Assembly: GCF_024758505.1 (NCBI RefSeq)
Contig: NZ_CP077970.1
Location: forward strand, 3,472,001 to 3,536,000
Direction of reading: 5' to 3'
Length of the DNA stretch: 64,000 nt
From: Bradyrhizobium arachidis
GTDB taxonomy: Bacteria; Pseudomonadota; Alphaproteobacteria; Rhizobiales; Xanthobacteraceae
Below the pieces are notes generated by a model, which saw only the letters and a list, made by a program, of their open reading frames with translations, made no database searches and was not told where the DNA came from. Below, one piece after another: positions 32,817 through 57,029 of the stretch (its first letter is position 1; each line of letters starts with the position of its first letter). A program made the position numbers and the translations under genes.

Positions 32817-32818
32817 TA

Positions 32819-32851
32819 TTGCACCGAGAGCAATGTTTTCCTTGCACCGAG
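32819..32851. promoter_or_regulatory. Direct repeats at the mocR start, probable autoregulatory site
   Basis: TTGCACCGAG occurs at 32819-32828 and again at 32842-32851, perfect copies with a 23-bp period. They lie just before the MocR gene start, covering its leader, and about 150 bp before the DUF1127 gene on the other strand. MocR proteins typically bind paired direct repeats. Confidence 0.45.
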
Positions 32852-32999
32852 GATTGTACTGGAGCATTTAAGTTCCATCAAGTTCCGCGATTGGACCGAG
32901 GGCTGCGAGAGCAATCCGAGGGCAATAAGGAGCAGGCGCTTCAGCGCCTGGGCCGACGGCCAGCCGTCGCCGCGCGGGACCGATAGCCGGAGAAGAACA

Positions 33000-40886: not shown

Positions 40887-43199
40887 ATGTCGATCAGCAG
40901 CATCAACTATTCCTCGTCGATTCTCGGCGCGCAGGTCCGCAACATCAACCAGCAGCTCACCGATCTGTCGACGCAGCTCTCCACCGGCAAGCTGTCGCAG
41001 AGCTATTCCGGCATGGGCACCAACGAAGGCTTTGCGATCGCCTCGCGGGCGCAGCTGTCCAACATCGCGGCCTATACCGACACGATCACCAACGTGAATG
41101 TCAGCATCAACCTCGCCAACACGGCCTTGCAGGCGCTGACGACCATTCGCAGCAACACGCAGACTGGCGCTGCGAACACCGCGCAGGACCTCAACGTCAA
41201 CGGACAGACGATCGCGCAGAACACGGCGGCGGCCCAGTTCGGCTCGATGGTCGGCGTGCTGAACACGCAGACCGGCAACCGCTATCTGTTTTCCGGGACG
41301 GCCTTCAATACGCAGCCGGTGACCAACGCCGGCGACATCATCAACGGCACCACGACCCAGGACGGCTTCAAGACCGTGATGGCCGAGCGCCAGGCGGCTG
41401 ACCTCGGCACCAACGGCATGGGACGGCTGGTTCAGACGCAGCCGACCCCAAGCTCCATCAACGTGGCCGAGGACTCCGCCACGTCGCCGTTTGGCCTGAA
41501 GCTCAAGGCGGTCTCCTCGACGCTGACCGGCGCGACCTTGACCGGCCCGAGCGGATCGCCCGTATCGTTTTCGGTCGATCTCAACGGCAACAATCCCGCC
41601 GACGGCGACAAGCTCAGCGTCCAGTTCACGCTGCCGGACGGCACGACCGAGCAGATCGATTTGACCGCGAGCAGCAAGACGCCGACGCCCGTGGGCAGCT
41701 TCGCGATCGACACCACGACGCCGGCCAACACGGCGACCAACCTCAACAACGCGCTGAACATCGCCATCAAGAAGCTCGCCGGCACCTCGCTGGTCGCGGC
41801 ATCAGCGATTACGGCGGGCGACAATTTCTTCAACACGGTGGGGTCGACGACCGCGAATGCGGCGGCCACCGGCAATCTGCGCTCGGCCTATACCTCCACG
41901 ACTGCGACTGGCTCGGTCGCCTTGCAGGACAACGCAGCGGTCGCGGCAGCCTCGACCACCTCACTCGATGCGACCGCAGGTAACCATCTCGCTTCGGGCA
42001 TCCTCACCGCGCTCGGCGGGACGACGCTGACGATCAACGGCAACACGATCACCTTCAACAACGGCACCACCGTCACGCCGGCCGGCAACAACACCACGAT
42101 CGGCCTCGGTGCGGGCACCACGGCGACGGTTCAAGACATCCTGACTGCGATCCAGACCGCCGGCGGCGCTGGCGTCACCGCGACGCTGAGTCCCAGCGGC
42201 AACATCCAGATCTCCACCGGCACCACCACCGACGTCTCCGTCACCGGGGGCGCGGCAGCGACGGCGCTGGGCATCAGCAGCGTGGCGCGCGGCGGCAACG
42301 TGCCGTCGACGCCTCCGATCACCGGCTCAACCGTGCTGAGCGGTACTGCGACGGCGGGCGGCCCGGAAGTGCTCTCATCGGGCTTCGCGGCCGGCGACAC
42401 CATCACGGTCAACGGTCAGACTCTGACGTTCATGACCTCGGGCGCCACCGGCCCAAACCAGATCAACATTACCGACGACGTGACAACTCTGCTCGGCAAG
42501 ATCGACCAGATCACCGGGACCTCGAAGCCGTCGACCATCCATGGCGGCGTGATCACGATCAACACCGACGACCCCGGCAGCCTGAACATCACGAGCTCCA
42601 ATGCGAGCGCGCTCGGATCGCTCGGCTTCTCCTCGACCACGATCACGGCGGCGAAGGCGCCGCTGCGGGTCGGTTCATCGCCCGCGGGATCGGCCACGAC
42701 GCTCGTCAACGGCACGGCCAACACCGTCAGATGGTACAACGGCAATGACGGGCCGGGCTCGGCGCGCTCCACGGCGGTGGCCCGGGTCGACGACTCCATC
42801 ACGGTCCAATACGGCGCGCAGGCCGACGAGGATGCGATCCGGCGGCAATTGCAGGCGATCGCCGTGTTCGGAACGTTCTCGACCTCGACCACGGGGCAAT
42901 ACTCCGGCGGTGCGGTCGCAGCCCTGAGCCAGAGAACGGCGCAGGCGCTGACCCAGCAGCCCGGCCAGCAGCGCATCGAGGACATCCAGACCGATATCGC
43001 GATGTCCCAGAATACGATGAAGGACGCGACCACGCGCCAGACCCAGGCCAAGGCGCAGCTCCAGACCATCATCGACCAGGCTGAGTCGGCCTCGCCCGAT
43101 CAGGTCGCCAGCGAAATCCTGTCGCTCCAGAACGCCCTCCAGGCCTCCTACCAGACGACCGCCAGCCTGGCGCAGTTGTCGCTCGTGAAGTTCCTCTGA
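40887..43199 (+). CDS. flgL: Hook-associated protein 3 (FlgL) with inserted repeat modules
   Basis: 770 residues, over twice the usual 300-350. The N-terminus (QVRNINQQLTDLSTQLSTGKLSQSYSGMG) and C-terminus (QNALQASYQTTASLAQLSLVKFL) are flagellin-like junction-protein helices. A large central insertion (about 200-600) contains two DUF1522-like modules (residues about 376-460 and 503-588), strikingly close to those of FlgE in protein and DNA. It sits between FlgK and the filament. Confidence 0.88.
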   Translation: MSISSINYSSSILGAQVRNINQQLTDLSTQLSTGKLSQSYSGMGTNEGFAIASRAQLSNIAAYTDTITNVNVSINLANTALQALTTIRSNTQTGAANTAQDLNVNGQTIAQNTAAAQFGSMVGVLNTQTGNRYLFSGTAFNTQPVTNAGDIINGTTTQDGFKTVMAERQAADLGTNGMGRLVQTQPTPSSINVAEDSATSPFGLKLKAVSSTLTGATLTGPSGSPVSFSVDLNGNNPADGDKLSVQFTLPDGTTEQIDLTASSKTPTPVGSFAIDTTTPANTATNLNNALNIAIKKLAGTSLVAASAITAGDNFFNTVGSTTANAAATGNLRSAYTSTTATGSVALQDNAAVAAASTTSLDATAGNHLASGILTALGGTTLTINGNTITFNNGTTVTPAGNNTTIGLGAGTTATVQDILTAIQTAGGAGVTATLSPSGNIQISTGTTTDVSVTGGAAATALGISSVARGGNVPSTPPITGSTVLSGTATAGGPEVLSSGFAAGDTITVNGQTLTFMTSGATGPNQINITDDVTTLLGKIDQITGTSKPSTIHGGVITINTDDPGSLNITSSNASALGSLGFSSTTITAAKAPLRVGSSPAGSATTLVNGTANTVRWYNGNDGPGSARSTAVARVDDSITVQYGAQADEDAIRRQLQAIAVFGTFSTSTTGQYSGGAVAALSQRTAQALTQQPGQQRIEDIQTDIAMSQNTMKDATTRQTQAKAQLQTIIDQAESASPDQVASEILSLQNALQASYQTTASLAQLSLVKFL
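42024..42121 (+). repeat. 98-bp tract shared with flgE
   Basis: Counterpart of 37531-37628 with one mismatch (A for G). See that entry. Confidence 0.7.
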
Positions 43200-43208
43200 G
43201 GGCGTCCG

Positions 43209-43227
43209 TTAAGGTCCCGTTAACCAT
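43209..43227 (+). promoter_or_regulatory. CtrA-type box before the glycosyltransferase cassette
   Basis: Perfect TTAA-N7-TTAA with the extended half TTAACCAT, immediately after the flgL stop and 48 bp before the glycosyltransferase start at 43275. It suggests the four-gene cassette has its own cell-cycle promoter rather than only read-through from flgL. Confidence 0.6.
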
Positions 43228-43274
43228 GCCTCTTTACCTCTTGGTGAGGAATTGGGGCGCGTGGGGAGCCGTCG

Positions 43275-44057
43275 ATGTCGGAGCGGATGCAACTGGTCGT
43301 AGCCACGCCGTGTTTCGGCGGGCAGGTGTCGAGCATTTATGCGAGTTCGATCTTCGCGCTGCAGCGCGCCGTGCACGGCATGTCCAATCTCGAGCTCAAG
43401 GTGCTCTTGCGCGACGGAGACGCGCTGATCACGCGGGCGCGGGCCAATCTGGTCGCGATGTTCCTCGACGATCCCAAGGCGACGCATTTCCTGTTCGTCG
43501 ACGCCGATATCGGATTTAAGCCCGAGCAGGTGTTCCGGCTGATCGAATGCGGTGCCGACGTCGTGGCCGGCTGCTACCCGATCAAGCGGGTCAACTGGAA
43601 TAAGGCCAAGCGGGCGATCGAGGCGGGGCGGGCGGACGTTGCGGCGGCCTCGCTGGACTACGTGCTCGAGATCGAGGACCCCGACCGCATCGTGGTGGTC
43701 AACGGCTTTACGCGCGTGCGTTATGCGGGCACCGGATTCCTGATGATCCGGCGTCACGTGCTGGAGGCGATGTGCCGCCATCCTGACTACGCGAACCTGC
43801 AATTCTTCCGCGAGCATTCGCACGACACGCTGGCCGCGAGCCGCAACCGCTTCGCACTGTTCGAGTGCATGATCGACCCCGCGACCGGCACCTATCTCTC
43901 CGAGGACTTTGCCTTCTGCAAGCGCTGGACCGACATCGGCGGCGAGATCTGGGCCGACATCCAGAGCTCGCTCGATCACGTCGGGCCCTCGGTATTCCAC
44001 GGCGACATCGCCTCGCAATTCGCGGCGGCGCCGGCCGTAGCCGCCGATGCCGCGTGA
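43275..44057 (+). CDS. GT-A-type glycosyltransferase-like protein
   Basis: 260 residues, no signal peptide or membrane segment. A nucleotide-sugar-binding core is suggested by TRARANLVAMFLDDPKATHFLFVDADIGF, with the DxD pair at Asp76 and Asp78, and an acidic stretch YLSEDFAFCKRW later. The fold resembles Anp1-like or GT2-like enzymes. Placed between hook-junction and flagellin genes and behind a CtrA box, it is a candidate for sugar attachment to flagellin or another filament part. GGGGAG upstream supports the start. The target is inferred from context only. Confidence 0.7.
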   Translation: MSERMQLVVATPCFGGQVSSIYASSIFALQRAVHGMSNLELKVLLRDGDALITRARANLVAMFLDDPKATHFLFVDADIGFKPEQVFRLIECGADVVAGCYPIKRVNWNKAKRAIEAGRADVAAASLDYVLEIEDPDRIVVVNGFTRVRYAGTGFLMIRRHVLEAMCRHPDYANLQFFREHSHDTLAASRNRFALFECMIDPATGTYLSEDFAFCKRWTDIGGEIWADIQSSLDHVGPSVFHGDIASQFAAAPAVAADAA

Positions 44058-44066
44058 GCCTCGCCG

Positions 44067-45677
44067 ATGAATGCCGGTGCGTCCCGTTTGCGTCCTGCGG
44101 ATGGTCCGCGCTATCGCTTGCGCGATCTCTTCACGCCGCTCGAGACGCTGCTCGCGTCCGGCGGTGACGTCCGCCTCGCGCTCGATCCGCAAAGTCGCCT
44201 GAACGCCTATGGCTGTGCGCCGGTGCCGTCCGACGAGGTTTGGAACTTCGCGTCCTCGACCGCTTCGTCGATCTCCGAGTCCGCCTATGAGCGGGCCGCG
44301 CTGGCGCGCGAAGAGCTCGTCCACAAATCGCTGTTCGACGAGGTGGACGTCGCTTTCGATGCCCGCGTCGAGGACATGCGCGACGAGCTGCGCAGCCATC
44401 TGCAGATTCCGCCGCGGGTTGACGTGGTGTTCTCGCCCTCGGGCACCGACTCCCAGCTTCACGCGCTGTTCCTGGCGCGCGCCGCGCTCGGCCGTCCGCC
44501 GGTGGCGATCGTCGTCGGCTCCGATCAGACCGGAAGCGGCGCGGCTGCAACCGCGCGCGGACATCATTTCAGCAGCCTAACGGCGAGCGGCGTCTCGGTG
44601 CGCAAGGATGCTCCGATCGCAGGTCTTGCCGGTGATTCCATCGCGCTGCCGCTGCGCGATGCCGTCCCCGTCATCGCTCAGCGCCGGGATGCCGATGCCG
44701 AGATCTTGCGGGCGATCGAAACCACGGTCGCGCGGGGCGCGCCGGTGCTGCTTCAGATCATGGACTCCTCGAAGCTCGGCTGGCGTGCGCCGAGCGACGC
44801 CTGCCTCGATGAGATCGCGCGGCGCTGGCCCGGCAAGGTCAAGATCGTCGTCGATGCCTGCCAGATGCGGCTCGGGCGCCGCCGGCTGCGTTTCTATTTG
44901 GACCGCGGCTACATGGTGCTGGTGACCGGTTCGAAATTCTTCGGCGGACCGGCCTTCAGCGGCGCGTTGCTCGTGCCAAAGGGATTTTCGCGCGCGCTCG
45001 ACCAGGATGCGGAGATTGCGCCGGGTTTCTTCGACTATGCGAGCCGTAGCGATTGGCCGAAGGGCTGGCCTGCGCTCAGATCCCGTTTCGAGAGCCGGCC
45101 GAATTTCGGCCAGTGGCTGCGCTGGGAAGCGGCGCTGAGCGAGATGGCCGCCTACTATGCAGTGCCCGGTGCATTCCGCGCCCGCGCGCTGGCCGAGCTT
45201 GAGGCCGGCATTGACAGCATGATCGCGCTGACGTCGTCGCTCAGTGCGGTGTCCGCGCCGCGGCAGACCGGCGTCGATGACGAGGAATTCGCCCACGCCA
45301 CTATCTTTCCGTTCACGCTGCTACGGCAGGGCAAGCCGATCCCGATCGCCGACACCAGCGCCATCTATCGCGCGCTCGCACGCGACATGAATGGCGACAT
45401 CGACGGCAGCGCTGCAGACCGCGAGGTCGCCGCGCAACGCTGCCTCGTCGGTCAACCGGTGCGGATCGATCTGCCCGATGGCACGCCGCACGCCGCGCTG
45501 CGGCTCTGCGTCGGCGCGCGGCTGGTGACCGAGGCCTGGTCGCCGGACGCAGCAAAAGCGCAGCGCAATCTGCAGCACATTCTCGATCGCATCGCCCATG
45601 TGATCGTGAAGATCGAGCTGTTGCTGGGCCGCGCTGACGGCGCGGCGCAAGTGACGACGTCTGTTTCCGGAGTTTGA
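44067..45677 (+). CDS. PLP-dependent fold-type I enzyme of unknown reaction
   Basis: 536 residues. Asp263 (VVDACQMR) and the predicted Schiff-base Lys290 (VTGSKFFGGPAFSGALL) are the PLP site of class V aminotransferase/desulfurase-like proteins. The N-terminal part contains FSPSGTDSQLHALFLARAA, a typical cofactor phosphate-binding region. It could be an aminotransferase, a lyase or a retro-aldol type enzyme; nothing in the sequence decides. It begins 9 bp after the glycosyltransferase stop and its own stop is 1 bp before the ATP-grasp start, so the genes are tightly coupled. Confidence 0.72.
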   Translation: MNAGASRLRPADGPRYRLRDLFTPLETLLASGGDVRLALDPQSRLNAYGCAPVPSDEVWNFASSTASSISESAYERAALAREELVHKSLFDEVDVAFDARVEDMRDELRSHLQIPPRVDVVFSPSGTDSQLHALFLARAALGRPPVAIVVGSDQTGSGAAATARGHHFSSLTASGVSVRKDAPIAGLAGDSIALPLRDAVPVIAQRRDADAEILRAIETTVARGAPVLLQIMDSSKLGWRAPSDACLDEIARRWPGKVKIVVDACQMRLGRRRLRFYLDRGYMVLVTGSKFFGGPAFSGALLVPKGFSRALDQDAEIAPGFFDYASRSDWPKGWPALRSRFESRPNFGQWLRWEAALSEMAAYYAVPGAFRARALAELEAGIDSMIALTSSLSAVSAPRQTGVDDEEFAHATIFPFTLLRQGKPIPIADTSAIYRALARDMNGDIDGSAADREVAAQRCLVGQPVRIDLPDGTPHAALRLCVGARLVTEAWSPDAAKAQRNLQHILDRIAHVIVKIELLLGRADGAAQVTTSVSGV

Positions 45678-45678
45678 G

Positions 45679-46923
45679 ATGCAGCACTTTTCCGATCCGC
45701 ATCGCCTGACCGCGCCGCAATTCGCGGACCGCATCGGCTTCGCGCGGCTGACGCATCAGGCTTTTGACGGCGTCGACCTGCGTCCGTTGCGCGATCGGCT
45801 CGTTGCCAAGATCGCCGATGGTACTGCGCAGGCAGGCGAGGGGCTCGATCTGTCGCTGATCGCCCAGCTCCTCGGCGACAAGGAGGGCGGGCTTGCGATC
45901 CAGGCGGAAGTGCTCGCCTTCCATCAACTGTTCCGCTCGCCCTGCGCCGTGACGAAACCGGCACTGCGTGTGCTTGCGCTTGCGGCGGCGATCGACATGG
46001 GCGGCAACACGCCGATCGAATTTTTGCTCGAAGGATCCGAGATCGAGCTGCTGACGCTCTATGTGGTGAAGGACGTCGGTCTGCCCGAGCCGCTGCCGGA
46101 TCACGACGTCGCCATCGTCGTGGCATCCGACTCCGAAGAGTGTCGCGAGGCACTCGCGTCGATCGACAATGCCGCATCGCGCTGGCCGCGGCCGCTGCTC
46201 AATCGTCCGGACCGCATCGCCAATCTCGATCGCGACAAGCTCTACCGCCTGCTTGCGGACATTCCGGGGCTCGACATTCCCGCAACGATCTGCGCCATGC
46301 GCTCGCAATTGACGGCACTTGCGGCTGGCGAGATGCGTTGCGGCGACATCGCCGACGAACTTTGCTTTCCGATGATCGCGCGCCCGCGCGGATCGCATGC
46401 CGGCGTCGGCCTCGCCAAGATCGACGATGCCGCTTCGCTCGCAAGCTATCTGACCGAACGAAGCGAGCAGGAGTTTTTCGTCGCGCGCTTCGTCGATTAT
46501 GCGAACGCTGACGGTCTCTACCGCAAATATCGTCTCGCCATCGTCGACGGCCGCCCTTACGCCTGTCACATGGCAATCGCGGATCGCTGGGACATATGGT
46601 ACCTCAATGCCTACATGGCGTTCAGCGAGGAGAAGCGCGCCGAAGAGGCGGCCTTCATGCACGACTTCGACGACGCGTTTGGTCGTCGCCATCGCGCTGC
46701 GCTCGACGAGATGAGCCGGCGCGTCGGGCTCGACTATTTCACCATCGACTGTGCCGAGAATAGCGACGGCGAGCTCCTGATCTTCGAGGCCGACAACACG
46801 GCAGTCGTGCACAACATGGATTCGCCGGACGTGTTTCCTTACAAACAGCCGCAGATGCGCAAGATCTTTGCTGCGTTCACTGCGATGCTGGCGCGTCACG
46901 CGAAAGCCGGGAGCCAGGCATGA
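45679..46923 (+). CDS. ATP-grasp ligase-like protein
   Basis: 414 residues. The C-terminal half is an ATP-grasp domain: lysine/arginine-rich nucleotide lid (FPMIARPRGSHAGVGL, residues 230-244), the YRKYRLAIVDGRPYACHMAI strands, and metal ligands Asp357 (YFTIDCAE), Glu370 and Asn373 (LLIFEADN). This is the layout of RimK/D-Ala ligase-like enzymes that join a carboxylate to an amine through an acyl phosphate. The N-terminal 170 residues are unlike known domains. Between two PLP enzymes, it may link the amine one of them makes to an acid or protein. Confidence 0.72.
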   Translation: MQHFSDPHRLTAPQFADRIGFARLTHQAFDGVDLRPLRDRLVAKIADGTAQAGEGLDLSLIAQLLGDKEGGLAIQAEVLAFHQLFRSPCAVTKPALRVLALAAAIDMGGNTPIEFLLEGSEIELLTLYVVKDVGLPEPLPDHDVAIVVASDSEECREALASIDNAASRWPRPLLNRPDRIANLDRDKLYRLLADIPGLDIPATICAMRSQLTALAAGEMRCGDIADELCFPMIARPRGSHAGVGLAKIDDAASLASYLTERSEQEFFVARFVDYANADGLYRKYRLAIVDGRPYACHMAIADRWDIWYLNAYMAFSEEKRAEEAAFMHDFDDAFGRRHRAALDEMSRRVGLDYFTIDCAENSDGELLIFEADNTAVVHNMDSPDVFPYKQPQMRKIFAAFTAMLARHAKAGSQA

Positions 46924-48428
46924 ACGAGATCGTCAGGAACGACGTGAACACCGCAGTCGAGAGCGCATCGCTCGATCCGCAAGATTGGAGCGCGTTTCGC
47001 GCGCTTGCGCATCGCATGCTCGACGAGACGATCGATTCCATCGCCAATGTTCGCGAGCGGCCTGTCTGGCAGCCGATTCCGGATCGCGTTCGCGCGGAGT
47101 TCAGAGCCGATGTGCCGCGCGCAGCCGCCGAGCTCGGCGATGTCTATCGCGAGTTCTCGGAAAACATTGCGCCGTACGCCACCGGCAATGTGCATCCCGG
47201 CTTCATGGGCTGGGTACATGGCGGCGGCACCGCGGTCGGCATGGTTGCAGAGATGCTGGCGGCGGGACTGAACGCCAATCTCGGTGGCCGCGATCACATG
47301 CCGATCGAGGTGGAGCGGCAGATCGTCGAATGGATGCGTCAGTTGTTCGGCTTCCCGCAAGGTGCGAGCGGCATCCTCGTCACGGGCACGTCGATGGCCA
47401 ACCTGATGGCAGTGCTGGTGGCGCGGAGCTCCGCACTCGGCACGCTGGCTCGGCAGCATGGTATCGGCAATGACGGCGCCTTGCTCACGGCCTACACGTC
47501 GAAGGCGGCGCATGGCTGCATTTCTAGGGCAATGGATATTGCGGGCCTCGGCACCGATGCGCTGCGCAGGATCGATATTGATGCCGATCATCGCATCGAC
47601 GTCGCCGCGCTACGCGCGCAGATCGCGATCGATCGCGAAGTCGGGTTCAAGCCGTTCCTCGTCGTCGCATCCGCCGGCACGGTCGACATCGGTGCGATCG
47701 ATGACCTCGAGGCGCTCGCGGCGCTGTGCCGCGAAGAGCAGATCTGGTTTCATGTCGATGGTGCATTCGGTGCGCTTGCCGTCTTGTCGGACGAGCTTGC
47801 GCCGCTGCTCGCCGGCATCGAGCTCGCGGACTCCATCGCGCTGGATTTCCACAAATGGGGGCAGGTGCCTTACGATGCCGGCTTCCTGTTGGTCCGCGAC
47901 GGCGAGCGGCATCGGCAGGCGTTTGCGCAGCCTGCGGCCTATTTGCGCCGCGAGGCGAGGGGGCTTGCCGCAGGTTCACACTGGCCGTGCGATTTCGGAC
48001 CTGATCTGTCGCGCGGCTTCCGCGCGCTGAAGACCTGGTTCACGCTGAAGACGTTCGGCACCGAACGGCTCGGCGCGGCGATCGCGCGCACCTGCGCGCT
48101 CGCAAAGTATCTCGAAGCGCGCGTCGTCGCCGAGCCAAAACTCGAGCTGCTCGCGCCGGTCAACCTCAACATCGTCTGCTTCCGCTATCGCGCCGATGAT
48201 GCGGATGGGATCAACGGCGAGATCGTCGCGGATATCCAGGAGTCTGGTATCGCGGCGCCATCGAGCACGACGCTCGACGGCAAGCTCGCGATCCGCGCGG
48301 CGATCGTCAATCACCGCACCGATGCGAGCGACATCGATGCGCTGGTATCGGCCGTGCTCGAGTTCGGCGCGCGCCGCAGCGGCGATGGCGTCGTCGAGAT
48401 CGCAGCACCGCCGCTCGCGGCACAATAA
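46920..48428 (+). CDS. PLP-dependent group II amino-acid decarboxylase
   Basis: 502 residues. Diagnostic parts: FMGWVHGGGTAVGMVAEML, GTSMANLMAVLVAR, stacking His199 (AAHGC), Asp280 (FHVDGAFGA) and Schiff-base Lys312 (DFHKWGQVPYDAGFL). This is the aromatic/acidic amino-acid decarboxylase family (DDC, GAD, CSAD). The substrate cannot be told. Its ATG overlaps the ATP-grasp stop by 4 bp (ATGA), implying coupled translation. A hairpin at 48458-48480 ends the unit. Confidence 0.83.
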   Translation: MNEIVRNDVNTAVESASLDPQDWSAFRALAHRMLDETIDSIANVRERPVWQPIPDRVRAEFRADVPRAAAELGDVYREFSENIAPYATGNVHPGFMGWVHGGGTAVGMVAEMLAAGLNANLGGRDHMPIEVERQIVEWMRQLFGFPQGASGILVTGTSMANLMAVLVARSSALGTLARQHGIGNDGALLTAYTSKAAHGCISRAMDIAGLGTDALRRIDIDADHRIDVAALRAQIAIDREVGFKPFLVVASAGTVDIGAIDDLEALAALCREEQIWFHVDGAFGALAVLSDELAPLLAGIELADSIALDFHKWGQVPYDAGFLLVRDGERHRQAFAQPAAYLRREARGLAAGSHWPCDFGPDLSRGFRALKTWFTLKTFGTERLGAAIARTCALAKYLEARVVAEPKLELLAPVNLNIVCFRYRADDADGINGEIVADIQESGIAAPSSTTLDGKLAIRAAIVNHRTDASDIDALVSAVLEFGARRSGDGVVEIAAPPLAAQ

Positions 48429-48457
48429 GTCCCGACAACGACACCACCAAAACAAAA

Positions 48458-48480
48458 CGCCCCGGACATGGTCCGGGGCG
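48458..48480. terminator. Bidirectional terminator
   Basis: Perfect 10-bp stem CGCCCCGGAC / GTCCGGGGCG with loop ATG. The left flank AACAAAA gives a U-run for minus-strand transcripts, so it is a good terminator for flbT and also closes the convergent decarboxylase gene. Confidence 0.75.
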
Positions 48481-48508: not shown

Positions 48509-48928
48509 TCAGGCCGCCGAACTGACGTCGCCGGTTTGTGTAGCGAGGTGGGTGCGAAGCTTCTCTTCGTAGGCGATCAGCTTGCGGGCCTCTTTCAGCG
48601 CCCTGTAGAGGTCGCCGTTCAGAATGTGGTTGTTGATGTTCTCGATGATCGGCCAGGAGCTCGGCACCGCCGTGACGATGTCGCGCACCAGGTTGAAGTA
48701 GGTGCCGTGCTGGGTCTGCGGATCCGGCGAGATGTACATAAGCTGCACCGCCAGATAGACGAGCTTGGCGGGCGTGTCAGCCGTCTCGGGCGTCAGAATG
48801 TCCCGCTCGCGCAGGATCGGCACGTTCTCGCCGTCGATCAGGAGGCGGGCGCGCTGATCGGTGTTGGTTATCACGCAGTTACCGACGATGATGCGTTCGT
48901 GCGGTCTGAGCTCGACCTTGAGAGCCAT
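48509..48928 (-). CDS. flbT: Flagellar biosynthesis repressor FlbT
   Basis: 139 residues, matching the family (ELRPHERIIVGNCVITNTDQRARLLIDG, LVYLAVQLMYISPD, NNHILNGDLYRALKEARKLIAYEE). In Caulobacter, FlbT binds the 5' leader of flagellin mRNA and destabilises it until the hook is finished. Here it is encoded next to four flagellins whose leaders share conserved blocks, so the same role is likely. The 308-bp divergent gap to the first flagellin is described with the leader elements. Confidence 0.92.
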   Translation of the reverse strand: MALKVELRPHERIIVGNCVITNTDQRARLLIDGENVPILRERDILTPETADTPAKLVYLAVQLMYISPDPQTQHGTYFNLVRDIVTAVPSSWPIIENINNHILNGDLYRALKEARKLIAYEEKLRTHLATQTGDVSSAA

Positions 48929-49236: not shown

Positions 49237-51525
49237 ATGACCGGCATCGTCCTCTCAGCATCCGTTCGTCAGAACCTGCTGTCCCTCCAGTCCACCGCTG
49301 ACCTCCTCGCCACCACCCAGAACCGTCTCTCGACCGGCAAGAGCGTCAACTCGGCTCTCGACAATCCGACCAACTTCTTCACGGCACAGTCGCTCGACAA
49401 CCGCGCCAGCGACATCAACAACCTGCTCGATGGCATTGCCAACGGCGTGCAGGTTCTGCAGGCTGCCAACACCGGCATCACCTCGCTGCAGAAGTTGATC
49501 GACAGCGCGAAGTCGATCGCCAACCAGGCGCTGCAGACCACGGTCGGCTACTCCACCAAGTCCAACGTCTCGGCCACCGTTTCGGGCGCGACGGCTGCGG
49601 ACCTCCGTGGCACGACCTCCTATGCCAGCACCGTTGCCACCAGCAACGTGCTGTATGACGGCACCGCGGGCGGCACCCATGCCGCGACCTCGGCCATCAC
49701 GCTGGGCGCGACCCAGGGCGTTACCACGGGTGCTACGGCAACCGCCGGTGACGGTTCGACGGCTCTGTCCGCCGGCATCACCCTGATCGCGAACGGTGCG
49801 GCGACCGCGACCGGCCTGATCGGCAACGCTCAGCCTGCCGATGGCGACACGGTTACCGTCAACGGCCACACGATCACCTTCCGCGCCGGTGCTGCTCCGG
49901 CCTCGACCGCTGTCGCCAGCGGCTCGGGCGTCAGCGGCAACATCGTGACGGATGGCAGCGGCAACTCGACCGTCTTCCTCGGCACGACCGCTGCTCCGGC
50001 GGCGACCGTTGGCGATCTCGCCACCGCGATCGACCTCGCCAGCGGCGTCAAGGTTGCCGTGAACAGCGCGGGTGCTGCGACCATCAGCACGAGCGCTGGT
50101 GAGACGGCCTCCGACATCGGCGTCACCACGGCCAGCAAGGTTACGCTGCGCAGCTCCACCGGTGCCGATCTCAACGTCACCGGCAAGGCTGACCTCTTGA
50201 AGGCTCTGGGTCTGACCTCTTCGGTCGGCGGCGGCAACGCCACCGTGACCGTCGCGCGCAGCACCAGCGCGGCTTCGCTCGGTCAGCTGATCCAGGACGG
50301 CTCGACGCTGAACGTGAACGGTCACGTCATCAGCTTCAAGAACGCCCCGGTCCCGGGCTCTGCCGGTGCGCCGGCGATCCCGACCGGCTCCGGCAAGAGC
50401 GGCAACGTCATCACCGACGGCGCCGGCAACTCGACGGTCTATCTGCAGGCCGGTACGGTTGCTGACGTCCTGAACGCGATCGACCTTGCCACCGGCGTGC
50501 AGTCCGCCACGATCGCCGCCAACGGCACCGCGACCCTTGCGGCCGCGTCCGGCCAGACGGCTTCGTCGGTCAACGCCTCCGGTCAGCTCAAGATCTCGAC
50601 CGGCGTCAATGCTGACCTGTCGATCACCGGCACGGGCAACGCGCTGAACGCGCTGGGTCTCGCCGGCAACACCGGCACGGCCTCGGCCTTCACGGCGGCT
50701 CGCACCTCCGGCATCGGCGGCATCTCCGGCAAGACCTTGACCTTCACCTCCTTCAATGGCGGTTCGGCGGTCAACGTCACCTTCGGCGATGGCACCAACG
50801 GCACGGTCAAGACGCTCGATCAGCTCAACTCGCAGCTCCAGGCCAACAACCTGTCTGCGACGATCGACGCCAACGGCCGTCTGACGATCTCGACGACGAA
50901 CGACTACGCGTCTTCGACGATCGGTTCGGCGGCTGCGGGTGGTGTGATCGGTGGTACGCTCACCACCGCGCTCACCTTCTCGACGGCGTCTTCGCCGGTT
51001 GCTGACACTGTTGCACAGACTTCCCGGGCAAACCTGGTCAGTCAGTACAACAACATCCTGAACCAGATCGACACGACCTCGCAGGACTCCTCGTTCAACG
51101 GCGTCAACCTGTTGAACGGCGACCAGCTCAAGCTGGTGTTCGACGAGACCGGCAAGTCGAGCCTGAACATCACGGGTGTGACCTACAACTCCAAGGGTCT
51201 GGGCCTCGCTGCGTTGACCGGTGGTGTCGACTTCATCGACAACTCCGCCACCAACAAGGTGCTGTCCGGTCTGAACTCTGCGTCCAGCACGCTGCGTTCG
51301 GAAGCGTCGAGCTTGGGTTCGAACCTCTCGGTCGTGCAGGTGCGTCAGGACTTCAACAAGAGCCTGATCAACGTGCTGCAGACCGGTTCGTCGAACCTGA
51401 CGCTGGCCGACACCAACGTCGAAGCGGCGAACAGCCAGGCACTGTCGACCCGTCAGTCGATCGCGGTCTCCGCGCTGTCGCTGGCCAACCAGTCGCAGCA
51501 GAGCGTGCTGCAGCTCCTCCGCTAA
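49237..51525 (+). CDS. Flagellin 1 of a four-gene tandem array
   Basis: 762 residues. D0/D1 helices are in residues 1-110 (SVRQNLLSLQSTADLLATT, SALDNPTNFFTAQSLDNRA) and 597-762 (ending ANQSQQSVLQLLR). The middle has three related modules (about 194-325, 340-485, 490-590) with the pattern GDTxTVNGHTITF...GNSTVYL...DLATAIDLASGV, probably DUF1522/Flagellin_IN type. Large flagellins of this kind build the thick filament of Bradyrhizobium. Much of its first half is identical in DNA to flagellin 2. A terminator follows at 51555. Confidence 0.92.
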   Translation: MTGIVLSASVRQNLLSLQSTADLLATTQNRLSTGKSVNSALDNPTNFFTAQSLDNRASDINNLLDGIANGVQVLQAANTGITSLQKLIDSAKSIANQALQTTVGYSTKSNVSATVSGATAADLRGTTSYASTVATSNVLYDGTAGGTHAATSAITLGATQGVTTGATATAGDGSTALSAGITLIANGAATATGLIGNAQPADGDTVTVNGHTITFRAGAAPASTAVASGSGVSGNIVTDGSGNSTVFLGTTAAPAATVGDLATAIDLASGVKVAVNSAGAATISTSAGETASDIGVTTASKVTLRSSTGADLNVTGKADLLKALGLTSSVGGGNATVTVARSTSAASLGQLIQDGSTLNVNGHVISFKNAPVPGSAGAPAIPTGSGKSGNVITDGAGNSTVYLQAGTVADVLNAIDLATGVQSATIAANGTATLAAASGQTASSVNASGQLKISTGVNADLSITGTGNALNALGLAGNTGTASAFTAARTSGIGGISGKTLTFTSFNGGSAVNVTFGDGTNGTVKTLDQLNSQLQANNLSATIDANGRLTISTTNDYASSTIGSAAAGGVIGGTLTTALTFSTASSPVADTVAQTSRANLVSQYNNILNQIDTTSQDSSFNGVNLLNGDQLKLVFDETGKSSLNITGVTYNSKGLGLAALTGGVDFIDNSATNKVLSGLNSASSTLRSEASSLGSNLSVVQVRQDFNKSLINVLQTGSSNLTLADTNVEAANSQALSTRQSIAVSALSLANQSQQSVLQLLR
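49510..50006 (+). repeat. 497-bp tract identical in flagellins 1 and 2
   Basis: I find no mismatch by eye between 49510-50006 and 52163-52659 (constant offset 2653), including third codon positions. The flanks differ at many silent sites. This indicates recent gene conversion. Confidence 0.75.
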
Positions 51526-51554
51526 TCGCGGCGGACATCGCCAACAAGACAATG

Positions 51555-51587
51555 GCGGCGGGGCTTCGGCCCCGCCGCTTTCTTTTT
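51555..51587 (+). terminator. Terminator of flagellin 1
   Basis: GCGGCGGGGC, loop TTCG, GCCCCGCCGC, then TTTCTTTTT: a textbook intrinsic terminator 29 bp after the stop. Each of the first three flagellin genes ends with a related GC stem. Confidence 0.9.
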
Positions 51588-51801
51588 GTCTCGGCGGTTC
51601 GTCGAGGCAGCGCTCGCGAGCAAGGTAAATGCTTTCCGCGATATGCCGCTTTGCTCACTGTGAGTTATGGTTGACAAGTCGCAAACGTCACGTCGCTGCG
51701 CGAAAAATCATCATCCGATCATGACGATACGCGTGGGCTCGATCTGGCTCTGACGATCCATATGGTGAATCCGCGCAAGGACTGGCGCGACGCGCTTCAT
51801 G

Positions 51802-51886
51802 CTTTGTTAGCCGTCTGCGTTCACCGTCCCGGCCATCGATTAATCTTGATCGAAGTTAGTTGCGTAGCGTACCAGAAAGGTAACAC
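51802..51886 (+). promoter_or_regulatory. Conserved leader of flagellin gene 2
   Basis: CTTTGTTAG at 51802-51810 (79 nt before the ATG) and ACCAGAAAGGTAACAC at 51871-51886 correspond to blocks in front of flagellin 1. The second block is identical in both genes. A TTGATCGAAG stretch between them matches the CGATCGA seen before flagellins 1 and 3. The 51588-51801 part of this gap has no clear feature. Confidence 0.5.
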
Positions 51887-51889
51887 TCT

Positions 51890-54178
51890 ATGTCCGGTAT
51901 CGTTCTCTCGTCGTCGGTTCGTCAGAACCTGCTTTCTCTCCAGTCGACCGCTGATCTTCTCGCCACCACCCAGAGCCGCCTTTCCACCGGTAAGAGTGTC
52001 AACTCGGCTCTCGACAATCCCACCAACTTCTTCACGGCACAGTCGCTCGACAACCGCGCCAGCGACATCAACAACCTGCTCGATGGCATTGCCAACGGCG
52101 TGCAGGTTCTGCAGGCTGCCAACACCGGCATCACCTCGCTGCAGAAGCTGATCGACAGCGCCAAGTCGATCGCCAACCAGGCGCTGCAGACCACGGTCGG
52201 CTACTCCACCAAGTCCAACGTCTCGGCCACCGTTTCGGGCGCGACGGCTGCGGACCTCCGTGGCACGACCTCCTATGCCAGCACCGTTGCCACCAGCAAC
52301 GTGCTGTATGACGGCACCGCGGGCGGCACCCATGCCGCGACCTCGGCCATCACGCTGGGCGCGACCCAGGGCGTTACCACGGGTGCTACGGCAACCGCCG
52401 GTGACGGTTCGACGGCTCTGTCCGCCGGCATCACCCTGATCGCGAACGGTGCGGCGACCGCGACCGGCCTGATCGGCAACGCTCAGCCTGCCGATGGCGA
52501 CACGGTTACCGTCAACGGCCACACGATCACCTTCCGCGCCGGTGCTGCTCCGGCCTCGACCGCTGTCGCCAGCGGCTCGGGCGTCAGCGGCAACATCGTG
52601 ACGGATGGCAGCGGCAACTCGACCGTCTTCCTCGGCACGACCGCTGCTCCGGCGGCGACAGTCGGCGATCTCGCGACCGCGATCGACCTCGCCAGCGGCG
52701 TCAAGGTTGCCGTGAACAGCGCGGGTGCTGCGACCATCAGCACGAGCGCTGGTGAGACGGCCTCCGACATCGGCGTCACCACGGCCAGCAAGGTTACGCT
52801 GCGCAGCTCCACCGGTGCCGATCTCAACGTCACCGGCAAGGCTGACCTCCTGAAGGCTCTCGGCCTGAGCTCGGCCGTCGGCGGCGGCAACGCCACCGTG
52901 ACCGTGGCGCGCACCACCAGCGCGGCTTCGCTCGGTTCGTTGCTGCAGGACGGCTCGACGCTGAACGTGGATGGTCACGTCATCAGCTTCAAGAACGCCC
53001 CGGTTCCGGGCTCTGCCGGTGCGCCGGCGATCCCGACCGGCTCCGGCAAGAGCGGCAACGTCATCACCGACGGCGCCGGCAACTCGACGGTCTATCTGCA
53101 GGCCGGTACGATTGCTGACGTCCTGAACGCGATCGACCTTGCCACCGGCGTGCAGTCCGCCACGATCGCCGCCAACGGCACCGCGACGCTTGCGACTGCC
53201 TCCGGCCAGACCAACTCGTCGGTCAATGCCTCCGGTCAGCTCAAGATCTCGACCGGCGTCAACGCCGATCTGTCGATCACCGGCACCGGCAATGCGCTGA
53301 ACGTTCTCGGCTTCGCCGGCAACACCGGCACCGGGACGGCCTTCACCGCGGCTCGCACCTCCGGCATCGGCGGCATCTCCGGCAAGACCCTGACCTTCAC
53401 CTCCTTCAGCGGCGGTTCGGCGGTCAACGTCACCTTCGGTGATGGCACCAACGGTACGGTCAAGACGCTCGATCAGCTCAACTCGCAGCTCCAGGCCAAC
53501 AACCTGTCTGCGACGATCGACGCCAACGGCCGTCTGACGATCTCGACGACGAATGACTACGCGTCCGCGACGATCGGTTCGGCGGCTGCGGGGGGTGTGA
53601 TCGGTGGTACGCTCACCACCGCGCTCACCTTCTCGACGGCGTCTTCGCCAACGCAGGATACGGTTGCACAAACGACCCGTTCAAACCTGGTCAACCAGTA
53701 CAACAACATCCTGCAGCAGATCGACTCCACCTCGCTCGACTCCTCGTTCAACGGTGTCAACCTCTTGAACGGCGACCAGCTCAAGCTGGTGTTCGACGAG
53801 ACCGGCAAGTCGAGCCTGAACATCACGGGCGTGACCTACAACTCGAAGGGCCTGGGCCTGGCCGCGTTGACCGGCGGCGTCGATTTCATCGACAACTCCG
53901 CCACCAACAAGGTGCTGACCAACCTGAACACCGCGTCCAGCACGCTGCGTTCGGAGGCTTCCGCGCTCGGTTCGAACCTCACGATCGTGCAGGTGCGTCA
54001 GGACTTCAACAAGAACCTGATCAACGTGCTGCAGACCGGTTCGTCGAACCTGACGCTGGCCGACACCAACGTCGAAGCGGCGAACAGCCAGGCGCTGTCG
54101 ACCCGTCAGTCGATCGCGGTCTCCGCGCTGTCGCTGGCCAACCAGTCGCAGCAGAGCGTGCTGCAGCTCCTCCGCTAA
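51890..54178 (+). CDS. Flagellin 2 of the array
   Basis: 762 residues, same layout as flagellin 1 and nearly identical to it through the first two modules; differences gather in the second half of the middle (for example ALGLSSAVGG, VLGFAGNTGTGTAF) and in short stretches near residues 590-615. D0/D1 ends are intact, so it should polymerise. It ends VLQLLR as do all four. Separate leader and terminator suggest a monocistronic transcript. Confidence 0.92.
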   Translation: MSGIVLSSSVRQNLLSLQSTADLLATTQSRLSTGKSVNSALDNPTNFFTAQSLDNRASDINNLLDGIANGVQVLQAANTGITSLQKLIDSAKSIANQALQTTVGYSTKSNVSATVSGATAADLRGTTSYASTVATSNVLYDGTAGGTHAATSAITLGATQGVTTGATATAGDGSTALSAGITLIANGAATATGLIGNAQPADGDTVTVNGHTITFRAGAAPASTAVASGSGVSGNIVTDGSGNSTVFLGTTAAPAATVGDLATAIDLASGVKVAVNSAGAATISTSAGETASDIGVTTASKVTLRSSTGADLNVTGKADLLKALGLSSAVGGGNATVTVARTTSAASLGSLLQDGSTLNVDGHVISFKNAPVPGSAGAPAIPTGSGKSGNVITDGAGNSTVYLQAGTIADVLNAIDLATGVQSATIAANGTATLATASGQTNSSVNASGQLKISTGVNADLSITGTGNALNVLGFAGNTGTGTAFTAARTSGIGGISGKTLTFTSFSGGSAVNVTFGDGTNGTVKTLDQLNSQLQANNLSATIDANGRLTISTTNDYASATIGSAAAGGVIGGTLTTALTFSTASSPTQDTVAQTTRSNLVNQYNNILQQIDSTSLDSSFNGVNLLNGDQLKLVFDETGKSSLNITGVTYNSKGLGLAALTGGVDFIDNSATNKVLTNLNTASSTLRSEASALGSNLTIVQVRQDFNKNLINVLQTGSSNLTLADTNVEAANSQALSTRQSIAVSALSLANQSQQSVLQLLR
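52163..52659 (+). repeat. 497-bp tract identical in flagellins 2 and 1
   Basis: Counterpart of 49510-50006; see there. Confidence 0.75.
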
Positions 54179-54207
54179 TCGCGGCGGACATCGCAAGCAA
54201 GACAATG

Positions 54208-54237
54208 GCGGCGGGGCTCTAGCCCCGCCGCTTTTTT
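54208..54237 (+). terminator. Terminator of flagellin 2
   Basis: GCGGCGGGGC, loop TCTA, GCCCCGCCGC, then TTTTTT. Stem sequence equals that after flagellin 1. Confidence 0.9.
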
Positions 54238-54426
54238 GCGTCGGCAGGAGAGGGGAGGCAGCGCACCGCATAAAAAAGTAACCGTAAAAAGTAACTGGCG
54301 GTTATGGTTAATGGCGCACTAACGAGCAAAAAACGCCAGCGATTACAGGACTTATTCTGATCGCCTCAGCTGTCCTGCGTGCGATTATGGTGAACCGACG
54401 CTTATGAGCGCGAGCGCCATTTCACC

Positions 54427-54511
54427 CTTTGTTAGCCATGATCCCTCAGGCTGTCCTCGTCACTCGATCCATCGCGATCGAAGGAAGACGCGTAAGCCAG
54501 AAGGGTAAAAC
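54427..54511 (+). promoter_or_regulatory. Conserved leader of flagellin gene 3
   Basis: CTTTGTTAG at 54427-54435 (77 nt before the ATG), a central CGCGATCGAAGG, and GCCAGAAGGGTAAAAC at 54496-54511 with the ribosome site. Placement matches the leaders of flagellins 1 and 2. The 54238-54426 part of the gap shows no gene. Confidence 0.5.
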
Positions 54512-54512
54512 T

Positions 54513-56801
54513 ATGTCCGGTATCGTTCTCTCTGCGTCGGTTCGTCAGAACCTGCTTTCTCTCCAGTCGACCGCTGACCTCCTCGCCACCACTCAGAACC
54601 GTCTGTCGACCGGCAAGAGCGTCAACTCGGCGCTCGACAATCCCACCAACTTCTTCACCGCCCAATCGCTCGACAACCGCGCCAGCGATATCAACAACCT
54701 GCTCGATGGCATCGCCAACGGCGTGCAGGTGCTGCAGGCCGCCAACACCGGCCTGACCTCGCTGCAGAAGCTGATCGACAGCGCGAAGTCGATCGCCAAC
54801 CAGGCGCTGCAGACCACGGTCGGCTATTCCACCAAGTCCAACGTCTCGACGACGATCGCGGGTGCAACTGCCGCCGACCTCCGCGGCACTACCAGCTTCG
54901 CCAGCGCTCTCGCTTCGAGCAACGTGCTGTATGACGGCACTGCGGGCGGCACCCATGCCGCGACCTCGGCCATCACGCTGGGCGCGACCCAGGGCGTTAC
55001 CACGGGTGCTACGGCAACCGCCGGTGACGGTTCGACGGCTCTCTCGGCCGGCATCACCCTGATCGCCAACGGTGCGGCGACCGCGACCGGCCTGGTCGGC
55101 AACGCCCAGCCCGCCGACGGTGACACGCTCACCGTCAATGGCCACACGATCACCTTCCGTGCCGGTGCTGCGCCGGCCTCCACCGCTGTTCCGGCTGGTT
55201 CGGGCGTCAGCGGCAACATCGTCACCGACAGCAGCGGCAACTCGACCGTCTACCTCGGCACGACCGCTACGCCGGCCGCGACCACCGGCGACCTCGTCAC
55301 CGCGATCGACCTCGCCAGCGGCGTGAAGGTTGCCGTCATCAGCGCCGGTGCCGCGACGATCAGCACGAGCGCCGGTCAGACGGCCTCCGACGTTGGCGTC
55401 ACCACGGCCAGCAAGGTGACGCTGCGCAGCTCAACCGGCGCCGACCTCAGCGTCACCGGTAAGTCGGACCTCTTGAAGGCTCTCGGCCTCAGCTCCGCGA
55501 CCGGCGGCGGCAACGCGTCGGTGAGCGTCAGCCGCACCACCAGCGCGGCCTCGCTCGGTCAGTTGGTGCAGGACGGTTCGACGTTGAACGTGGATGGTCA
55601 CACCATCACCTTCAAGAATGCTCCGGTTCCGGGCTCTGCGGGTGCTCCCGCGATCCCGAGCACCTATGGCAAGACGGGCAACGTCATCACCGACGGCAAC
55701 GGCAACTCGACGGTCTATCTGCAGGCCGGTACGGTCGCCGACGTCCTGAACGCGATCGACCTTGCCACCGGCGTCCAGACGGCCAGTATTGCCGCCAACG
55801 GCACCGCGACGCTGTCGACCGGCACGGGCCAGTCCAACTCGTCGATCAACACCTCCGGCCAGCTCCGGATCTCGACCGGCATCAACGCCGACCTGTCAAT
55901 CACCGGCACGGGCAATGCCCTGAACGTGTTCGGTCTCGCCGGCAACACCGGCACGGCGAGTGCGTTCACCGCCGCGCGTACTTCCGGCATCGGCGGCATC
56001 GCTGGCAAGACCTTGACCTTCACTTCCTTCAACGGCGGCACGGCGGTCAACGTCACCTTCGGCGACGGCACCAACGGCACCGTCAAGACGCTCGATCAGC
56101 TCAACACGCAGCTTCTGGCCAACAACCTAGCTGCGACGATCGACGCCAATGGCCGCCTGACGATCACTGCCTCTAACGACTACGCGTCGTCGACGATCGG
56201 TTCGCTGACGGCGGGTGGCACGATCGGCGGTACCCTGACCGCGGCACTGACCTTCTCGACGGCCTCGACCCCCGTTCAGGACGCAGTTGCCCAGACCGCG
56301 CGTGCCAACCTGGTGTCGCAGTACAACAACATCCTCAACCAGATCGACACGACCTCGCAGGACTCCTCGTTCAACGGCGTCAACCTGTTGAACGGCGACC
56401 AGCTCAAGCTGGTGTTCGACGAGACCGGCAAGTCGAGCCTCAACATCACCGGCGTGACCTACAACTCCAAGGGTCTGGGCCTCGCCGCGCTGGTCGTGGG
56501 TGTCGACTTCATCGACAACTCGGCGGCCAACCGGGTGCTCACCAACCTCAACGCTGCCTCGAGCACGCTGCGGTCGGAATCCTCCACGCTGGGTTCGAAC
56601 CTCTCGGTGGTGCAGGTGCGTCAGGACTTCAACAAGAACCTGATCAACGTGCTGCAGACCGGTTCGTCGAACCTGACGCTTGCCGACACCAACGTCGAAG
56701 CGGCCAACAGCCAGGCGCTGTCGACCCGCCAGTCGATCGCGGTCTCCGCGCTGTCGCTGGCAAACCAGTCGCAGCAGAGCGTCCTTCAGTTGCTCCGCTA
56801 A
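54513..56801 (+). CDS. Flagellin 3 of the array
   Basis: 762 residues from ATG 54513 (GAAGGG ribosome site); an upstream in-frame TTG at 54429 lies inside the conserved leader and is rejected. The architecture is as in flagellins 1 and 2, with more substitutions (KSNVSTTIAGATAADLRGTTSFAS, GKSDLLKALGLSSATGGG). A patch around 54919-55042 is again nearly identical in DNA to flagellins 1 and 2, embedded in more diverged sequence, which suggests mosaic conversion. Conserved D0/D1 ends. Confidence 0.92.
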   Translation: MSGIVLSASVRQNLLSLQSTADLLATTQNRLSTGKSVNSALDNPTNFFTAQSLDNRASDINNLLDGIANGVQVLQAANTGLTSLQKLIDSAKSIANQALQTTVGYSTKSNVSTTIAGATAADLRGTTSFASALASSNVLYDGTAGGTHAATSAITLGATQGVTTGATATAGDGSTALSAGITLIANGAATATGLVGNAQPADGDTLTVNGHTITFRAGAAPASTAVPAGSGVSGNIVTDSSGNSTVYLGTTATPAATTGDLVTAIDLASGVKVAVISAGAATISTSAGQTASDVGVTTASKVTLRSSTGADLSVTGKSDLLKALGLSSATGGGNASVSVSRTTSAASLGQLVQDGSTLNVDGHTITFKNAPVPGSAGAPAIPSTYGKTGNVITDGNGNSTVYLQAGTVADVLNAIDLATGVQTASIAANGTATLSTGTGQSNSSINTSGQLRISTGINADLSITGTGNALNVFGLAGNTGTASAFTAARTSGIGGIAGKTLTFTSFNGGTAVNVTFGDGTNGTVKTLDQLNTQLLANNLAATIDANGRLTITASNDYASSTIGSLTAGGTIGGTLTAALTFSTASTPVQDAVAQTARANLVSQYNNILNQIDTTSQDSSFNGVNLLNGDQLKLVFDETGKSSLNITGVTYNSKGLGLAALVVGVDFIDNSAANRVLTNLNAASSTLRSESSTLGSNLSVVQVRQDFNKNLINVLQTGSSNLTLADTNVEAANSQALSTRQSIAVSALSLANQSQQSVLQLLR

Positions 56802-56828
56802 TAAGCAGCTGAAATCACTAAATAAATC

Positions 56829-56862
56829 GAGCGACGGGGCCTTTGCCCCGCCGCTCTTTTTT
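56829..56862 (+). terminator. Terminator of flagellin 3
   Basis: GAGCGACGGGGC, loop CTTT, GCCCCGCCGCTC, followed by TTTTTT. One internal A-C mismatch. Confidence 0.88.
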
Positions 56863-56910
56863 GCCGTCCGGGAGGTCGTTTTGGCGTTAACCCGCCACTA
56901 ACCGTAACGC

Positions 56911-56929
56911 TTAAGTCGTCGTTAACCAT
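56911..56929 (+). promoter_or_regulatory. CtrA-type box before flagellin 4
   Basis: Perfect TTAA-N7-TTAACCAT, 100 bp before the ATG of flagellin 4. Flagellins 1-3 have instead a CTTTGTTAG block in a similar place, so this copy may be timed differently. Confidence 0.6.
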
Positions 56930-57029
56930 ACTTTAAAGGACAGACCCTACAACTGGACAAAAGCCCGCTTTCCAGATCGGCGAGCCCCGATTCGTACCCG
57001 GTATCGCGCTTCAAGAGGAAGACCCGCCA

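Follow-up and report, generated by a model that had tools for sequence, protein, structure and literature searches.

The window analysed here, a 64,000-nucleotide stretch of Bradyrhizobium DNA, carries four tightly packed plus-strand open reading frames (ORFs; 43275-48428 by the window's ORF calls) between the flagellar genes flgL and flbT. They are predicted to encode a glycosyltransferase (GT), a pyridoxal phosphate enzyme (PLP), an ATP-grasp ligase (ATPg) and a decarboxylase (DC). Our leading interpretation, held tentatively and with a little under even confidence, is that of an accessory, CtrA-controlled operon that would modify the Bradyrhizobium subpolar filament, with a sugar added by the GT and an amine coupled via an amide bond. 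As far as sequence can tell, the cassette most likely serves a chemical decoration of the flagellum by a route not previously described.

The window locus is the four-flagellin, subpolar-type flagellar locus of Bradyrhizobium (Table 1). In B. diazoefficiens, the subpolar filament likewise consists of four large flagellins, FliC1-4 (bll5843-bll5846), and the subpolar flagellum is the one that responded in a capillary chemotaxis assay (PMC4823718). Upstream of the cassette, flgE and flgK were identified by Pfam. The host was assigned to Bradyrhizobium by its named relatives, and its genome is one 9.43-Mb contig with a single PLP match. Within the unit, GT and PLP lie 9 bp apart, PLP and ATPg 1 bp apart, and ATPg and DC overlap by 4 bp; the ORF coordinates bear out this packing between flgL and flbT, which the original prediction, made from the letters of the window, had described.

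Table 1. Features of the window discussed in the text
Feature	Position	Strand	Basis or remarks
CtrA-type box TTAAGGTCCCGTTAAC	43209..43224	.	perfect match; begins 66 bp before the first gene (GT)
GT, 260-aa predicted GT-A glycosyltransferase	43275..44057	+	D76xD78 and E210D211xxF214C215 invariant; weak Anp1 matches in relatives
PLP, 536-aa fold-type I, class V-like PLP enzyme	44067..45677	+	predicted structure; K290 (TGSK), D263 and S125-G126-T127 invariant
ATPg, 414-aa ATP-grasp ligase, RimK/LysX-like	45679..46923	+	predicted structure; four-helix N-terminal extension (21-81)
DC, 502-aa group II PLP decarboxylase	46920..48428	+	PF00282; H311-K312 and Y341 invariant in 13 sequences
Hairpin, 10 pairs	48458..48480	-	U-tract on minus strand only; flbT terminator
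flgL (neighbour)	40887..43199	+	no Pfam match; named by place behind flgK and conservation in relatives
flbT (neighbour)	48509..48928	-	family-model matches
Four 762-aa flagellin genes (neighbours)	49237..59318	+	Pfam run on the first one

Conservation and modularity of the cassette

We sampled 296 genomes of the family, including 27 of the window's genus; PLP is matched in 41 genomes, GT in 57 and ATPg in 67, counts that include fragments and distant members. ATPg is present in 20 of the 27 Bradyrhizobium genomes and adjoins flbT in all 18 Bradyrhizobium contexts that were read; in G064 and G277, flbT lies within 1.7 kb on the same contig (G and L numbers are our handles for genomes and loci). 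The 78 named loci are the best by ATPg similarity and hence mostly from Bradyrhizobium; PLP was sought in the locus only, and as flagellar genes we counted those that resemble six window proteins, so that distant ones may have been missed. The original prediction held that homologous cassettes lying mostly away from flagella would count against it; 70 of the 78 loci have flagellar genes, and the other eight comprise six Rhodopseudomonas loci, one from Tardiphaga and one stretch that ends early (L215). Moreover, flbT occurs in 49 of the 50 genomes with an ATPg of at least about 40% identity versus 172 of 246 others (Fisher p 3.5e-6, relatedness not corrected). Four other genera of the family also carry parts of the unit among their flagellar genes, and the combinations found outside the genus are ATPg+DC (L103), DC+ATPg (L106, L107), PLP+ATPg (L041) and two ATPg copies (L113). 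Together with the position conserved in the genus and the box conserved in Bradyrhizobium, these occurrences uphold the proposed link to the flagellum, which is real across several genera of the family, yet not absolute. Purifying selection acts on each of the four genes (dN/dS 0.035-0.273 over five comparisons of the window with relatives), and the GT is the most constrained (0.035-0.060).

A perfect CtrA box had been reported ahead of the cassette, and we recovered it: TTAAN7TTAAC has four matches in the window, where 0.01 are expected in shuffles, two of them being the nearly palindromic site at 43209 counted once per strand. Among the 70 flagellar loci, the box is strict in 58, a one-base TTAG variant in six, absent from the searched stretch in four and unassessable in two. 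The four without a box, out of 68 assessable loci, are L200, L202, L203 and L211; in L202 and L203 a TTAG box sits before the GT gene instead. Over 60 aligned upstream regions, identity to the window reaches 98% in the half-sites, 62% in the spacer and 74% in the remainder of the 150 bp; the segment immediately following the box is likewise well conserved. The box is retained at loci in which the first gene, GT, is deleted, and it is present before PLP in L041. The operon would appear to be under a conserved CtrA-type promoter to which CtrA presumably binds. Two more perfect CtrA-type boxes, overlapping and on opposite strands, are located at 56911-56936, a short way ahead of the fourth flagellin gene (57030).

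The strong hairpin thought to end the cassette belongs elsewhere. As its U-tract follows on the minus strand only, it is built as an intrinsic terminator of flbT, which rules out that role for the cassette; it may additionally stop the cassette transcript, though not as an intrinsic terminator.

The unit is modular, with ATPg and DC as a stable core and GT and PLP as separable parts. DC was found in 75 of the 78 named loci, the exceptions being L200 and L215 (both stretches end early) and the Tardiphaga locus L209 (none nearby). Of the 70 flagellar loci, 59 have an intact GT, 58 an intact PLP and 52 both, which leaves 11 loci in which GT and 12 in which PLP is not intact. The remnants of GT vary in extent (residues 1-33; 1-32; 1-40 joined directly to 182-259; 235-260; 1-22; 200-260), which indicates several separate deletions. 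One genome with such a remnant (G299) also holds a distant GT (37% identity), and in L200 the gene is missing from the stretch only, an intact GT being present on another contig of the same genome. Three Bradyrhizobium loci (L202, L203, L215) are arranged as PLP-ATPg-GT-ATPg, with two ATP-grasp genes, and DC follows in two of them. The idea of one coherent four-gene pathway has to be abandoned: GT and PLP are missing independently of each other, which rules out an indivisible pathway, GT occurs alone in flagellar loci, and a GT-less trio occurs outside them.

The suggested co-occurrence with large flagellins survives as a soft trend only. The longest flagellin has at least 515 aa in 27 of 27 non-duplicate Bradyrhizobium-type loci with an intact GT and a complete flagellin (leaving out the duplicates L153, L170 and L183, and L036, which has only a 123-aa piece), and at most 418 aa in 8 of 11 loci whose GT is not intact (duplicate L211 left out). 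Counter-examples go both ways. Long flagellins without an intact GT are found in L199 (547 aa), L103 (619 aa) and L113 (761 aa; GT on another contig of the genome); as read from coordinates, the GT-deleted genomes G296 and G302 have flagellins of about 547 aa and of 760 aa, respectively, and the GT-bearing G305 and G310 have flagellins of about 390-400 aa. Of the four GT-only loci, L120, L121 and L123 show 384-385 aa and L122 shows 612 aa, and L228 has a 749-aa flagellin without the cassette. On these counter-examples we dropped the notion that large flagellins require the cassette.

Predicted activities of the four proteins

Of the enzyme classes originally proposed, the decarboxylase is clear, the ATP-grasp and PLP assignments rest on predicted structures, and the GT assignment on weak Anp1 matches and a DxD motif. 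DC is the only cassette protein with a clear Pfam match (PF00282, E 2e-65, 221.4 bits versus a cut-off of 27). Its catalytic His-Lys and loop Tyr align with known enzymes, and its best PDB rows are 4obu (R. gnavus) and 5o5c (DfoJ). Because its scores fall far under the cut-offs of the matching substrate-named NCBIfam models, its substrate cannot be named.

For ATPg, the nearest predicted folds of residues 93-414 are those of the RimK/LysX/ArgX ligases. The window protein has no Pfam match of its own, and its score with TIGR00768 (RimK family) is 17.8 bits, not reaching the cut-off of 143.4. RimK and LysX are enzymes acting on proteins; these folds, the helical extension and the TPR precedent of Caulobacter FlmG (see below) suggest by analogy that ATPg might also act on a protein. 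TPRs are carried by 7 of 26 ATPg-family members, and we discounted the PDB TPR matches of the family profile for that reason. No named function is attached to this ligase family in Pfam or NCBIfam as searched. Its members occur in varied contexts. In a related genus, a TPR-fused ATP-grasp gene lies directly behind the 761-aa flagellin gene and is followed by a gene with a weak HAD-hydrolase match (L113:590-4699). The ATP-grasp protein of Rhizobium tumorigenes (L135:9980-11692) has a C-terminal extension that resembles, by eye, a C39-like cysteine peptidase, Pfam giving only a Synapsin-type match. On a Paraburkholderia plasmid, ATPg is paired with a SerC-like gene.

The DxD aspartates of GT, D76 and D78, are invariant across 15 GT-family sequences. 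Anp1 is matched weakly by five of the 15 family members (best E 5.6e-4), and GT2 and GT21 models match one member each; the window protein has no Pfam match, TPR included, and its profile found nothing useful among PDB sequences. Among the matches listed, one of 15 phage relatives is annotated as a glycosyltransferase. All five Acetobacteraceae plasmids found carry a relative with 39-43% identity within a flagellar cluster, with motB on one side and the fliI/fliJ position on the other; the Acetobacter persici copy is split into two ORFs, and its neighbour at the fliJ position bears the annotation hypothetical.

PLP is matched by no Pfam or NCBIfam model: PF00266 (class V aminotransferase) gives no match to the window protein and matches 2 of 18 relatives (best E 0.0043), and the PLP profile gave nothing useful against PDB sequences. 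Its structural model suggests a fold-type I, class V-like arrangement. Its nearest folds are a tie between aminotransferases, NifS and C-S lyases, and we therefore set aside deducing its reaction from the fold. In Rhodopseudomonas rhenobacensis, PLP and ATPg form a single 953-aa frame, a natural fusion (L040:9272-12133, identical with L218:8360-11221).

Candidate functions of the cassette

We envisage two separable modules, the GT on the one hand, and DC and ATPg with PLP as an accessory on the other. The GT would most likely work in the cytoplasm, adding a sugar to a hook or filament protein that has yet to be exported. In the second module, DC would most likely decarboxylate an amino acid to an amine, and ATPg would join this amine, or an amino acid, to a carboxylate acceptor through an ATP-driven amide bond; that DC and ATPg form the stable core suggests amine formation followed by amide ligation. 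A filament protein would probably serve as the acceptor, or else the sugar that the GT attaches. A specific version is rather unlikely in our estimation: the RimK-like ligase, recruited via its helical N-terminus, would couple the DC amine to carboxylates of flagellin (or FlgE, FlgK or FlgL) ahead of export, and the GT would represent a new class of small flagellin glycosyltransferases at work in the cytoplasm.

Several observations weigh against a filament-modifying operon. Seven of the 27 sampled Bradyrhizobium genomes have no such unit, yet have a flagellar locus (flgK present). In Rhodopseudomonas-type genomes, the 20-kb stretch with the PLP-ATPg-DC trio lacks all six flagellar query proteins (15 of 15), and the trio has no strict box within 300 bp (0 of 16); six of 16 carry a box that differs by one base, at about -138 to -155, so that a weaker CtrA control may exist there. 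In Rhizobium tumorigenes, a plasmid bears the trio as ATPg-PLP-DC, away from flagella. Outside the main Bradyrhizobium group, the 300 bp ahead of ATPg contain no box in L099, L103, L106, L107 and L113; in L106 and L107, where DC is in front, the search covered the stretch before ATPg. The window ATPg has no TPR match. Finally, GT is found outside flagellar loci at L118, L235 and L237, and none of the six non-Acetobacteraceae plasmid relatives of GT that we read is flagellar: one neighbours a type I exporter and a calcium-binding protein, one an autotransporter and one other glycosyltransferases, one lies near type VI secretion genes, and two have no clear partner gene. In L040 and L047, two Rhodopseudomonas-type loci, though not in L043, the trio is near genes for a CpdR-like response regulator and ftsEX-like genes, all named by eye.

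The trio away from flagella, its separability from GT and a distant PLP relative located behind a nonribosomal peptide synthetase gene in Sinorhizobium are in line with another quite plausible scenario, in which PLP, ATPg and DC make a small amide (dipeptide-like or an amine conjugate) unrelated to the filament. The CtrA-type promoter would then time its synthesis with flagellation, and GT would be an unrelated neighbour that may glycosylate flagellin. This scenario accounts less well for ATPg and DC in flagellar loci of several genera with differing gene orders, for the association of closer ATPg proteins with flbT, and for nearest folds that act on proteins. All in all, a small metabolite as the product is nearly as likely as a protein modification.

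It is improbable, in our view, that GT alone acts on the flagellum, the other three enzymes supplying or modifying its donor sugar, for instance an amino-acyl or amine-amidated uronic acid. The strong constraint on GT and its flagellar relatives in another bacterial order fit this idea, but ATPg, with DC where the locus reaches, persists in all 11 flagellar loci (of 70) whose GT is not intact (L200 having its GT on another contig), GT occurs without the other three, and none of the four genes was recognised as coding for a sugar-nucleotide enzyme. Lastly, the genes are very unlikely to be mere passengers at an insertion-prone flgL-flbT junction, with no cell-surface function: among the seven cassette-free Bradyrhizobium genomes, five have flgL directly followed by flbT, one has two unrelated large ORFs in between and one is rearranged, but the purifying selection on all four genes and the conserved promoter box argue otherwise. 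The two ORFs at this junction in L230 (L230:6463-11260) look, by eye, like a cyclase/ATPase regulator and a patatin-like protein.

Should the RimK-like ligase indeed couple the DC amine to filament carboxylates, we would know of no earlier case in which a flagellar filament is modified through an amide bond by an ATP-grasp enzyme, and CtrA would set the timing. A hidden chemical coat on the subpolar flagellum would matter for how these bacteria move and attach and for how plants and phages recognise them, in a genus that includes soybean inoculants. Strains with natural losses of GT or PLP are ready comparisons for intact-mass work, and a single identified ATPg product would annotate a wide ligase family, including its TPR-fused relatives.

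Elsewhere in the genome, a MocR-type regulator (GntR-aminotransferase fusion) is encoded at 31473-32867 of the window, upstream of the flagellar genes, and one NeuB homologue (G000:C1:3357828-3358631, L219) lies 113 kb before the window.

Relation to known systems

No such cassette is named in the titles and abstract beginnings listed by our literature searches, which did not extend to most subscription journals or to supplements. Each enzyme has recognisable kin. DC shares family and catalytic residues with group II PLP decarboxylases and differs in its sub-cut-off scores on substrate-named models. The predicted fold of PLP is like those of class V aminotransferases, NifS and C-S lyases, without a family-model match for the window protein. 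ATPg would share the RimK/LysX/ArgX fold over residues 93-414, but differs by its extra N-terminal helices and its sub-cut-off TIGR00768 score.

A close parallel is flagellin glycosylation by FlmG of Caulobacter (PMC7591256). Both systems are alphaproteobacterial; FlmG is under CtrA control and binds flagellins through its TPR part, and the cassette has a CtrA-type box and TPR parts in relatives of ATPg. Cytoplasmic action on several flagellins would be expected here too. In contrast, FlmG combines TPR and GT domains in one protein, whereas the window GT has no TPR and shows a weak Anp1-type likeness in its relatives; and the cassette, which holds no pseudaminic acid gene, adds a decarboxylase, a PLP enzyme and an ATP-grasp ligase.

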